Assembly (NCBI RefSeq): GCF_041449215.1
Contig: NZ_JBGNFV010000001.1
Location: forward strand, 2,083,001 to 2,147,000
Length of the DNA: 64,000 nucleotides
DNA from: Roseivirga sp. BDSF3-8
GTDB lineage: Bacteria > Bacteroidota > Bacteroidia > Cytophagales > Cyclobacteriaceae
Reading direction: 5' to 3'
Shown here: piece by piece, positions 17,863 to 61,522 of the stretch
Layout of the letters: every line of letters starts with the position of its first letter
How positions within the stretch are numbered: position 1 is the first letter of the stretch
Translations under genes and position numbers: made by a program
The notes under the pieces: model-generated
What the model was told of the DNA's origin: nothing
Databases searched by the model: none
What the model saw: only the letters and a program-made list of their open reading frames with translations

Positions 17863-19098
17863 TCAAACCATGGCCACTGAAGACTTAAGAGCATCCGTCA
17901 GGCTTTCTTTAAGGCCACTTTCTTCTGGAATGACAGCGAGAAATAACCCCGACTCCTCTAATGTAGCCTCTGCTTCCTTAAGCCACCGGAAAGAGGCTTT
18001 GACAATGACTATCTTCTCTTCGTCTATAGTAGCTATGAAATCCGGCTTATTTTCAAGCTCAGGAATTAGTCCTGGTGTACCGCGCAGATAGACGTCAAAG
18101 ACTAAATCATCGGATAGTATTGGCTGTTTCAGCCCTGACGTTTTAGCATACCCGTATCTGTAATTATTTAGAACCCCCAATGTATCCGCAAATACAGCAG
18201 AGCCTGTGGGGTGCCCGCCTGCCCCTTTACCACGATAGAGTTGGTTCCCTGAATACTCTCCGGTTACCTGTACTGCATTATATTCGTATTCCACGCCATA
18301 CAGATCAGCTTCAGAAGATACAAAAACCGGAGCGACGATTGCGGAAAGCTCATTATTGCCCTTGATTTTAGCTTCTGCGAGTAGTTTGATCCGTGCATTC
18401 GCAGCCTCTGCTATGCTGAGGTCAACTTCAGAAAGGTTTTGAATTCCGTGCCTGAATGGTTTATCTGTGGATAAATAGATGCCATATGCCTGATTAACAA
18501 GTATGCATAATTTATTGAGGGAGTCGAATCCACCTACATCCAGTGTAGGGTCGGCTTCAGCAAAACCCAGATCTTGTGCTTCTTTAACTGCCTCATCGTA
18601 ACTTATACCTTCCACCCGCATTTTAGTTAAAATAAAGTTTGAGGAGCCGTTAAATATACCGCTCAGTTCCTGCAAAGGCTCACTACCGTAGTAATCCTCA
18701 AGCGTTCTTACGATTGGTACCGCACCGCAGCAGGAAGCTTCATAAAGCAAGGGGGATTTATGCTTTTTTTGCAGATCCAGAAGCTGGGGTAGATAAGTAG
18801 CCACCATTTTTTTATTGGCTGTCACTACTGGAATACCCTTCTCTAGCGCCTTGCTCACAATAGTAAAAGCACTTTCGTGATCAGTAATAGCCTCTACTAT
18901 CAGATCAATACTATCATCCTCCAGTATTTCATCAGGGTCATAGCTAAAAATAGATTCTGCTATGGGTCTTTTTTTCCCAGGGTGTATTACTCCGATTTTT
19001 TTAACCTCGGCATCGACATCCGAAGCCTGTAAAATATCATAAAATCCCTGCCCTACGCATCCGAAGCCGAACAGGCCAATCTGTTTCTTGTTGCTCAT
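17863..19098 (-). CDS. hom: Homoserine dehydrogenase
   Basis: It reduces aspartate semialdehyde to homoserine. 411 residues: N-terminal nucleotide-binding motif GLFGFGCVGQGFY, and the catalytic region with PLLYEASCCGAVPIVRTLE and the substrate-binding stretch GGFDSLNKLCILVNQAYG. YRGKGAGGHPTGSAVFADTL near 300 is a family hallmark. No aspartokinase domain is fused to it, and a C-terminal ACT domain is not obvious. It is the last gene of the metY-metX-hom operon, 18 bases after metX, so it supplies homoserine for the first two enzymes. It should be under the same SAM/cysteine leader control. Confidence 0.95.
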   Translation of the reverse strand: MSNKKQIGLFGFGCVGQGFYDILQASDVDAEVKKIGVIHPGKKRPIAESIFSYDPDEILEDDSIDLIVEAITDHESAFTIVSKALEKGIPVVTANKKMVATYLPQLLDLQKKHKSPLLYEASCCGAVPIVRTLEDYYGSEPLQELSGIFNGSSNFILTKMRVEGISYDEAVKEAQDLGFAEADPTLDVGGFDSLNKLCILVNQAYGIYLSTDKPFRHGIQNLSEVDLSIAEAANARIKLLAEAKIKGNNELSAIVAPVFVSSEADLYGVEYEYNAVQVTGEYSGNQLYRGKGAGGHPTGSAVFADTLGVLNNYRYGYAKTSGLKQPILSDDLVFDVYLRGTPGLIPELENKPDFIATIDEEKIVIVKASFRWLKEAEATLEESGLFLAVIPEESGLKESLTDALKSSVAMV

Positions 19099-19116: not shown

Positions 19117-21563
<2,447 letters not shown>

Positions 21564-21580
21564 TTAATGGCAAAAAGCTA

Positions 21581-21724
21581 TTAACAGCAACAGGGACAAC
21601 AACAGGCTAACTCCAGTAGGATGGACCGGTTACAGGTGCAATCAAATAATTGACTATCAGCTAATTGGAAGTATCCAACGCTACGGGATTTTAATTGAAA
21701 TGGGGATAAAGAAGTAACCATCAT
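21581..21724 (-). CDS. 47-residue cysteine-rich leader peptide upstream of metY
   Basis: ATG at 21724 to TAA at 21581-21583. The peptide starts MMVTSLSPFQLKSRSV and ends LELACCCPCCC; eight of its 47 residues are Cys, six in the last seven codons, which read TGT TGT TGT CCC TGT TGC TGT. It starts six bases after the last base of the riboswitch P1 stem. Its last Cys and stop codons form one arm of a hairpin (CTGTTAAT / ATTAACAG, 21561-21587). I infer a ribosome-mediated cysteine sensor for metY-metX-hom, analogous in logic to amino-acid attenuators and to the poly-Cys upstream ORFs of actinobacterial cysteine genes. Translation is not proven. Confidence 0.68.
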   Translation of the reverse strand: MMVTSLSPFQLKSRSVGYFQLADSQLFDCTCNRSILLELACCCPCCC

Positions 21725-21730
21725 TATGGA

Positions 21731-21846
21731 ATTAATTTATATTTCCCCGGGCTTTCCGGAGTCAGGAATTAGCACCTTGACCTATTGCAGGTCAGGTTGC
21801 TAGTGCGTCATAGAGCCTGTCTCTCAGCACTTCTCTATAAATCAAT
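21731..21846 (-). promoter_or_regulatory. SAM-I (S-box) riboswitch controlling metY-metX-hom
   Basis: On the minus strand the leader holds the S-box core in order: GAGAAGTGCTGAGAGACAGG, then CTATGACGCACTAGCAACC, a short hairpin GACCTGCAATAGGTC, and the hallmark AAGGTGCTAATTCC. The closing P1 stem is ATTGATTTATA (21836-21846) with TATAAATTAAT (21731-21741), eleven pairs including one G-U. S-box RNAs bind S-adenosylmethionine and switch off methionine genes. No terminator follows P1 immediately; instead, the Cys-rich leader ORF begins six bases later. Confidence 0.9.
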
Positions 21847-21874
21847 TACTGTGGTTAGTAATTGACTGGATATA

Positions 21875-21905
21875 CAATGTTATACACTCCCGGCGAGCTT
21901 TCAAA
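21875..21905 (-). promoter_or_regulatory. Candidate promoter of the met operon leader
   Basis: On the minus strand TTTG (21902-21905) and TAACATTG (21875-21882) are separated by 19 bases, close to the Bacteroidota TTTG / TAnnTTTG pattern with one mismatch. Transcription would begin just before the riboswitch P1 stem. Confidence 0.45.
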
Positions 21906-22101: not shown

Positions 22102-22314
22102 ATGCAAAAGAAACTAAACTTGAAAGCACTTGAGGTGCAGAGCTTTATTACCACTTCAGAAGCTAAAGAGATGAAAGCAGGTAAGCAGTCTCTAAATTAT
22201 AGCGAGTGCGATAGCTGCGGAATTGCCTGTACAGTAGTAGACTGTCCGGTACCTAGTGAAAATTACACTGACTGCGGTAGCTGTGGTATTGCCTGCACCG
22301 TAGTAGAGTGCTAA
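22102..22314 (+). CDS. Pinensin-like lanthipeptide (RiPP) precursor with two Cys-rich cores
   Basis: A 70-residue peptide from the ATG at 22102; this start gives the family leader MQKKLNLKALEVQSFITT typical of Bacteroidota class I lanthipeptide precursors. A short spacer is followed by two near-copies of a core, CDSCGIACTVVDC and CGSCGIACTVVEC, each preceded by a Tyr-Ser/Thr-acidic stretch and each with four Cys and a Thr, plus Ser residues that could form lanthionine rings. No LanB, LanC, peptidase transporter or radical-SAM gene is nearby, so modification enzymes would have to be elsewhere. It is divergent from the met operon leader. The class is confident, the final product unknown. Confidence 0.8.
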   Translation: MQKKLNLKALEVQSFITTSEAKEMKAGKQSLNYSECDSCGIACTVVDCPVPSENYTDCGSCGIACTVVEC

Positions 22315-60995: not shown

Positions 60996-61522
60996 TATAA
61001 CACAATTTGATCAATGAACGCCTACTCTTTAAAGGTTTTCAGCTTCCCCTCTATATCACGGTCTAATTTTAATCAATTTTTTCGACTATACCCTATGTTT
61101 AACAAGAAAACTAAAATATCTCTCACTAAAAGTGCATAATTCGAAGATACATTACAGGTTTTAATTGAATTATTCGGATGGTGGTATGTGATTATTTTTA
61201 CACCGTAATGTCATTAAATTCTTTATTTAAACCATTGACTTACACGATATAACAGCCTATTAATTAGTGTGTTATCACGTATACTTACTTCTGTAGCCCA
61301 CACTAAAAGCGAATAATCCACTATAAAAGGCGCGTTTTTAATAAAAAAGTTCACATTTGGGGTGGTAAAATTCATTAAACGTCTGCTCCAACTTAGTATG
61401 GCAGAATAATAATTGGATTTAAGGAATTACTAAAAATGATAAAATGAGAAAAAACTTACATAAGTATGTTCCTGTTAGTGTGTTAATTTGCTCACCTTAC
61501 GTAAATCCCGGTCCTTGTTTAT
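60996..61522. other. AT-rich intergenic region with a spaced direct repeat
   Basis: No gene seen. CACTAAAAGTGCATAAT (61124-61140) and CACTAAAAGCGAATAAT (61301-61317) agree at 15 of 17 positions, 177 bases apart, and could be protein-binding sites. Promoters for the flanking divergent genes should be here. Confidence 0.5.

Follow-up and report, generated by a model that had tools for sequence, protein, structure and literature searches.

The leader of the metY operon in Roseivirga sp. BDSF3-8 raises the question of whether a SAM riboswitch and a cysteine-rich open reading frame lying directly behind it are chance neighbours or the two halves of one regulator. The window, the whole stretch of DNA that was analysed, comprises 64,000 nucleotides of this genome. 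An earlier note on this DNA had placed a SAM-I (S-box) aptamer upstream of metY, and this is borne out by a full-length match to RF00162 at 21734–21843 (−), which scores 83.7 bits against a gathering score of 44.4. According to excerpts of one paper, SAM-I was already reported in the Bacteroidetes/Chlorobi in 2007 (PMC2211319). The operon downstream begins with metY, which encodes an O-acetylhomoserine sulfhydrylase (20163–21482 (−); TIGR01326, 689.4 bits, above cut-off), and continues with a metX-like homoserine acyltransferase gene (19117–20166 (−)) and hom, encoding a homoserine dehydrogenase (17863–19098 (−); NF004976, 304.8 bits, above cut-off). The order metY-metX-hom that had been proposed holds, with the middle gene best described as MetX-like, its best NCBIfam matches being MetX models whose curated cut-offs it does not reach (344 of 500 and 319.7 of 331).

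Between aptamer and operon lies an upstream ORF (uORF; 21581–21724 (−)) of 47 codons plus stop, which opens with two tandem ATGs and whose arrangement is conserved in relatives. Its 47-residue product, MMVTSLSPFQLKSRSVGYFQLADSQLFDCTCNRSILLELACCCPCCC, contains eight Cys, six of them among the last seven codons, as the earlier note had described, and ends in CCCPCCC. The predicted regulatory tail, Cys-Cys-Cys-Pro-Cys-Cys-Cys, occupies 21584–21604 (−) and adjoins the stop codon. The gap of six bases that had been given between P1 and the ATG did not stand; it is 9 nt by the Rfam P1, and 5 nt once a predicted 4-bp extension of P1 is counted, whose 5′ side (21844–21847 (−)) pairs with 21733–21730 and whose 3′ side (21730–21733 (−)) ends 5 nt upstream of the uORF start codon. 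On the 5′ flank of the aptamer, a predicted hairpin of 11 bp with a 6-nt loop (P0; 21840–21867 (−)) takes up the 5′ arm of P1 and is proposed as an anti-P1 helix; its predicted energy, with a second small hairpin counted in, is −10.2 kcal/mol (z −4.3). On the 3′ side, metY starts 98 nt past the stop of the uORF; this stretch contains predicted hairpins, of which H1 (21561–21587 (−)) overlaps the end of the uORF, and a U7 tract before metY (21504–21510 (−)) for which a scan returned no adjacent stable stem. Upstream of P0, the sequence TAACATTG (21875–21882 (−)) is a possible, weak promoter −7 element with one mismatch to TAnnTTTG, the Bacteroidetes consensus in excerpts of PMC9723704. The exact consensus occurs in 15 of the 29 poly-Cys leaders, as defined below, that have at least 75 nt of upstream sequence, against 1.2 expected.

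The comparison with other genomes draws on three sets of SAM-I leaders. The census set holds 121 SAM-I matches from 59 genomes of the organism's own family and order; the named set holds 53 SAM-I aptamers in 53 of 80 MetY loci with record titles, with L122 dropped as a duplicate of L060; and the class set holds 107 SAM-I matches from a class-wide draw of 119 genomes, after removal of seven G000 and G048 matches that the census already contained and of two that scored under the cut-off. A leader qualified as poly-Cys when an ATG lay within −3 to +27 of the aptamer end and at least three Cys stood among the last 12 codons of the uORF. Three leaders with an in-frame Cys run are missed by this criterion and counted as negative, namely L078 (GTG at +9), L121 and L124 (both with an ATG at +62). 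Tail statistics and part of the structure statistics are based on the 64 poly-Cys leaders of the census and named sets, and the later ones on 74.

Across all three sets, 74 of 280 SAM-I leaders carry a poly-Cys uORF. Conservation of the ORF and its Cys codons among relatives had been chosen beforehand as the test on which the idea was to be refuted, and at least one poly-Cys leader was found in 33 of the 52 SAM-I-bearing genomes of the census and in 10 of 81 further SAM-I-bearing genomes of the class sample, where the carriers fall into 7 of 40 families. By record title, carriers include Pedobacter, Mucilaginibacter, Hymenobacter, Psychroflexus, Lewinella, Saprospiraceae and Cyclobacteriaceae. 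One of three Sphingobacterium leaders qualifies (L134, and not L127 or L140) and that of a Cyclobacterium (L141) does not. SAM-I-metY loci that lack the poly-Cys uORF were found in Chitinophagaceae (L144, L148, L149, L154, L157), Ignavibacteria (L175, L178, L189), Balneola-type bacteria (L171, L186, L194) and Aneurinibacillus (L201). The sole case outside Bacteroidia is an Acidimicrobiia contig (L191), where SAM-I precedes metY and a uORF at +11 contains LCCSMPC. Separately, a Saprospiraceae metY leader (L173) has a Cys/Met-rich uORF from about 250 to 130 nt before metY without a SAM aptamer, even at a relaxed threshold.

A chance origin of this arrangement is ruled out by three observations. 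First, when leaders of the census and named sets are sorted by the last pair of P1, 63 of 104 in the A-U class qualify and 0 of 65 in the C-G class, while dinucleotide shuffles yield a mean of 0.31 and a maximum of 3 in 100 rounds; the sorting is our own imperfect scheme, and poly-Cys uORFs are also seen in 4 of 145 C-G leaders and 1 of 15 others. Second, at least four TGY triplets in a row occur in 50 leaders; an ATG lies near the aptamer in 47 of them, and its frame is open and includes the run in 46 of the 47. Third, the metH leaders serve as an internal control, as no poly-Cys uORF precedes metH in any of 106 SAM-I leaders. Within the 6.1-Mb genome of the Roseivirga itself, the pattern Cys3-x-Cys3-stop occurs once, in the metY leader, and five consecutive TGY triplets occur three times. 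One of these three is the tail (...GTCCCCCYC) of a second SAM-I/poly-Cys uORF (L002), another falls inside a 737-codon open frame of a different phase, and the last has no preceding ATG in the Cys frame. A megablast search against plasmids returned no plasmid homologues of the metY leader region. It is near certain that the Cys- or Cys-Met-tailed uORF and the SAM-I aptamer form an evolutionary unit.

What has been kept within the uORF is its position, its frame and its tail. The ATG stands 7–11 nt past the aptamer in 59 of the 74 poly-Cys leaders, and the codons after the AUG are mostly A-rich. Cysteine accounts for 44% of the last 12 codons and for 1.8% of the uORF body (n = 64), is encoded in the tails by 230 TGT and 139 TGC codons, and is the very last codon in 43 of 64 uORFs. 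The body shows no conservation, with a local score of 14.9 compared with 14.7 for shuffled sequences, so it is from frame and tail that we infer coding. Retention of position, frame and tail would be expected if the uORF encodes a leader peptide, and would not if it encodes a working protein. Accordingly, there is only a very slim chance that the uORF makes a functional small Cys-rich protein, metal-binding or redox-active, whose synthesis is repressed by SAM: a Cys run could bind metal, and the range of lengths (22–64 residues) is suited to such a product, but no sequence outside the tail is conserved, and it is instead the position relative to aptamer and gene that persists. In some relatives the tail itself is missing. 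Leaders L009, L043, L052, L059, L075, L076, L080, L084 and L085 have an A-U-type P1, an ATG 6–9 nt past it and uORFs without Cys tails; in such relatives the start site outlives the Cys run.

Methionine is the sole other residue clearly enriched in the poly-Cys tails, at 7.4% against 1.5% in the body, and ATG accounts for 72 of 495 non-Cys tail codons where 8.9 would be expected from base composition. A Met stands within the last 12 codons of 46 of 72 uORFs but within residues 2–13 of only 8 of 72, and Cys adjoins Met in 41 of 72. Because ATG is not one base away from TGY, this enrichment does not reflect decay of Cys codons. The tail in the window has no Met of its own, and in uORFs without poly-Cys tails Met, Cys and Arg are all raised near the end.

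The genes behind these leaders provide the strongest functional hint. In the counts that follow, each leader is assigned the first long ORF, possibly not the first real gene; labels outside the window are BLAST clusters, with one Pfam-checked member each for OsmC, sulfite reductase, TonB receptor, RimK-like ATP-grasp and the Cys/Met PLP enzyme, and the metH label was checked over 60 residues of one metH. A poly-Cys leader precedes MetY/MetB-like genes in 60 of 132 SAM-I leaders, a count in which every aptamer of the named set is taken as a metY leader; five of those 53 (L146, L172, L175, L182, L196) lie more than 1 kb upstream and are all negative, and without them the share is 60 of 127. For MetY alone, as recognized by the TLQxH motif, the shares are 24 of 35 in the census, 9 of 11 in the class set and 18 of 45 in the named set, which leaves 11 of 35 census MetY leaders without a poly-Cys tail. 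Other genes preceded by poly-Cys leaders are OsmC-like (4/4), sulfite-reductase-like (3/3), TonB/SusC-like (3/4) and ATP-grasp (1/2), along with other genes (2/8) and unassigned ones (1/12). None was found before metX (0/7) or hom (0/2), nor, as noted above, before metH. The Roseivirga genome repeats this pattern among its three SAM-I aptamers. Those of metY and L002 are followed by poly-Cys uORFs, L002 standing before a Cys/Met PLP enzyme of the MetB/MetZ kind (PF01053), and that of L003, before metH, is not. The dual leader thus sits mostly on genes that assimilate or handle sulfur, while metH, which only carries a methyl group to homocysteine, is under SAM control alone. At the level of sequence, then, the arrangement is conserved, in frame, held in position and specific to certain genes.

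Turning to the SAM input, the usual SAM-I expression platform lies 3′ of the aptamer and competes with P1. No such platform was found in the poly-Cys leaders, where the 5′ arm of P1 has a predicted partner upstream (z −0.95, SE 0.14) and none downstream (z +0.22); this marks a difference in platform and not a failure of the aptamer, and these z-scores, like the others given here, overstate independence because the leaders are related by descent. In the metH leaders, by contrast, the partner of the same arm lies downstream (z −0.66, SE 0.14) and not upstream (z −0.01), an arrangement that resembles the usual 3′ one. On predicted pairing, therefore, one aptamer family carries two different platforms. 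Bacteroidia metH SAM-I leaders (e.g. L003, L014, L081) also have a second GAUAAG-like copy of the P1 3′ arm downstream (CUUUCUGAUAAG or similar), which is likely a 3′ decoy platform.

In the poly-Cys leaders the predicted competitor is P0, which is more stable than in shuffled sequences (mean z −2.17, compared with −0.30 in the C-G class). At least six P0 pairs, of varied types, are present in 64 of 74 poly-Cys leaders, and 10 of 74 fall short; since predicted folds favour pairing and so bias the pair types drawn from them, it is the comparison with shuffles that properly tests this helix. Pairing of the P1 flanks over four positions reaches 0.656 for true flanks against 0.544 for swapped ones (z 4.5) and is not above swapped flanks in the C-G class (z 1.0), although a contiguous extension is absent from 20 of the 74 poly-Cys leaders. 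Both features are also seen in A-U-class leaders without poly-Cys tails (P0 z −1.62; P1 extension z 6.3), and thus accompany the early ATG irrespective of the Cys run. Constrained folds predict the AUG region to be open at 0.62 in the P0 state against 0.37 in the P1 state, with the higher value in the P0 state in 65 of 74 leaders. The ligand-free RNA is predicted to favour P0 by 2.8 kcal/mol on average (sd 3.6), a preference that ligand binding could plausibly overturn. P0/P1 exchange with occlusion of the AUG is supported by these modelled folds. Since P1 tends to extend towards the ATG and its 5′ arm is also the target of P0, the expected effect of SAM is to shut off uORF translation and not to act on the gene directly. 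Unlike in the usual SAM-I riboswitch, whose aptamer and downstream sulfur and methionine genes the metY leader shares, the predicted target here is a uORF start and the competing helix is 5′ of the aptamer. Bacteroidia mRNAs are without Shine-Dalgarno sequences. In Flavobacterium, initiation is tuned by secondary structure near the start and by A at −3, −6, −12 and −13, according to excerpts of PMC6847099. It is likely, as far as the models go, that SAM acts through the uORF start by exchange between P0 and P1.

The same leaders could instead hold two independent controls in series, with SAM-I acting on the transcript itself and the poly-Cys uORF serving as a separate cysteine attenuator with no gating by SAM. 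Actinobacterial poly-Cys uORFs do occur without SAM switches (in excerpts of PMC1262725), the L173 leader has a Cys/Met-tailed uORF with no detectable aptamer, and some poly-Cys leaders lack a contiguous P1 extension. This reading is nevertheless unlikely, as the spacing between P1 and the ATG hardly varies, the 5′ arm of P1 has a predicted partner upstream and none downstream, and the uORF body is unstructured, which leaves P1 and the tail with no visible second platform between them.

The cysteine input would be exerted on the RNA between the tail and the gene. Relative to shuffles, the RNA after the uORF is structured (z −1.25) and the uORF body is not (z +0.13), compared with −1.86 for metH leaders after the aptamer; taken from tail to gene, the mean z is −1.38, with values below 0 in 54 of 64 poly-Cys leaders. 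No single conserved structure was found downstream of the uORF among the leaders listed, and the shapes vary from one to the next. In the window, the final Cys codon and the stop codon both fall within the 5′ arm of H1, so that this hairpin would be unable to form while a ribosome stood on the tail. That the region is structured, and that the UGY repeat can pair with downstream RCA-rich sequence, would also suit a repeat needed as RNA, for pairing or protein binding, with the ORF incidental. Such a role is very improbable, given that the tail pairs with downstream RNA only slightly better than shuffled sequences do (duplex z −0.73, below 0 in 39 of 64), that 46 of 47 leaders have the run in the frame of the ATG, that the stop follows the run directly in 43 of 64, and that Met codons, which are not one base from Cys codons, are enriched as well. 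We infer instead that the uORF is translated and senses cysteine through its codons, and on this sequence evidence attenuation by the uORF in response to cysteine is likely.

A classical intrinsic terminator immediately after the uORF was considered for the window and rejected, as a scan found no hairpin with a U-run there. Hairpins with U-runs follow the uORF in 5 of 64 poly-Cys leaders, the window's not among them, and occur in 22 of the 65 C-G-class leaders scanned. Two leaders of sulfite-reductase-like genes (L070, L079) have a second Cys-run ORF after the first poly-Cys uORF and then a clear hairpin with a U-run, possibly representing tandem Cys sensing with intrinsic termination. Predicted openness is 0.61 at the gene start and 0.44 in the region preceding it (n = 52), a difference that speaks for control of transcription, or control before metY translation, and against masking of the gene start. 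The uORF body is richer in C (0.247) than in G (0.145), which, as a suggestion, would suit a Rho-loading site. Mycobacterial cys leaders, too, are described as being without conserved terminators, and Rho has been suggested for them, in excerpts of PMC1262725. The preferred candidate for the last step is premature termination, intrinsic or Rho-dependent, ahead of occlusion of the metY start.

Together, these features are best accommodated by a composite leader in which the SAM-I riboswitch governs initiation of a leader peptide that in turn governs the metY operon, a reading to which we give a probability of about 0.7. The suggestion of the earlier note that one leader could read both SAM and cysteine is upheld as the best fit to this anatomy, as judged from sequence and modelled structure. 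The Met codons in the tails of relatives, the P1 extension, P0, the second copy in the genome and the clear divide from metH leaders add to what that note had described. At low SAM, the 5′ arm of P1 would be held in P0, leaving its 3′ arm and the AUG open so that ribosomes could start on the uORF. At high SAM, P1 would form, in many leaders extended towards the AUG, and the uORF start would be blocked. Where charged tRNA-Cys (or tRNA-Met) is scarce, a ribosome that had started would stall on the Cys codons before the stop, or on Cys and Met codons in many relatives, and would keep the structure after the uORF from forming, such that the operon is expressed. If cysteine suffices, or if high SAM keeps ribosomes off the uORF, that structure would form and expression would fall. 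The inducing state would then be low SAM and low cysteine together. In classical attenuators, expression is low without translation as well as with full translation, and high only when the ribosome stalls. It is by analogy with these that induction is presumed to require both shortages.

Each half of this leader has counterparts elsewhere. Poly-Cys leaders of mycobacteria and other actinobacteria are reportedly leaderless, going by the title of work by Canestrari and colleagues from 2020, as cited in PMC13236596. As in the metY leader, the Cys run of such leaders lies by the stop codon upstream of sulfur genes, and no conserved terminator hairpin is reported for them in the excerpted text of PMC1262725. 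The same excerpts mention no riboswitch, whereas the run described here stands behind a SAM aptamer, in Bacteroidia, and often includes Met codons. The uORFC-8-2 motif before cysS in Rhodobacterales likewise combines a uORF with Cys codons, for which ribosome-mediated attenuation is proposed, but in the excerpts of PMC8632094 it has two tandem Cys codons, a stem with a U-run consistent with an intrinsic terminator and no riboswitch. Closest in principle is the Mycobacterium tuberculosis ppe2 B12 riboswitch, whose ligand-bound state is predicted to mask a uORF initiation region, making the uORF the first target (PMC11260477, in excerpts). The ppe2 uORF, according to the same excerpts, overlaps the gene and works mainly by termination-reinitiation, with no amino-acid-sensing codon run described; an overlap of this type (AUGA) is absent at metY, where uORF and gene are 98 nt apart. 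The tandem attenuators of Salmonella mgtCBR, unlike the metY leader, have no SAM aptamer in the excerpted account (PMC3641672). Excerpts of a Flavobacterium transcriptome study offer strong clues for leader-peptide attenuation before amino-acid operons, in which cysteine is not named (PMC9723704). No description of a SAM riboswitch joined to a Cys leader peptide, or of poly-Cys leaders in Bacteroidota, was found in the literature searched, a body of work with most subscription papers outside its scope, and excerpts of a riboswitch regulon survey (PMC3766115) and an attenuator survey (PMC2965389) make no mention of the former combination.

Riboswitches and leader-peptide attenuators are normally treated as alternatives, and here they appear joined in a fixed order dozens of times across a large bacterial class. 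The signals read by mgtCBR, namely Mg2+, ATP and proline, differ from those proposed for the metY leader, and the mgtA/mgtL leader offers a related comparison. There is perhaps an even chance that the Bacteroidia use a portable two-stage RNA device, in which a SAM-I aptamer with a 5′ platform, of a type that the literature searched does not describe, would gate a leader peptide that reads the charging of Cys and Met tRNAs, so that one leader would integrate SAM, cysteine and methionine, on sulfur-assimilating and sulfur-handling genes and never, in 106 leaders, on metH. If true, this would constitute a natural logic gate that separates sulfur-bringing genes, under dual control, from methyl-moving genes under SAM control only. 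The system also gives a direct test of riboswitch regulation through a uORF, and it illustrates that half of the regulator stays hidden behind an Rfam annotation alone, here a SAM riboswitch upstream of metY.

Two minor features of the window may be added. Divergent from metY, at 22103–22314 (+), lies a 70-residue ORF from an ATG (MQKKLNLKALEVQSF...) with two CDSCGIACTVVDC-like repeats, which we take to resemble a Cys-rich precursor of a ribosomally made peptide of the lanthipeptide type. At 61052–61019 (−), a DUF805b RNA (RF02914) scores 37.9 bits, barely over its gathering score of 35.6.
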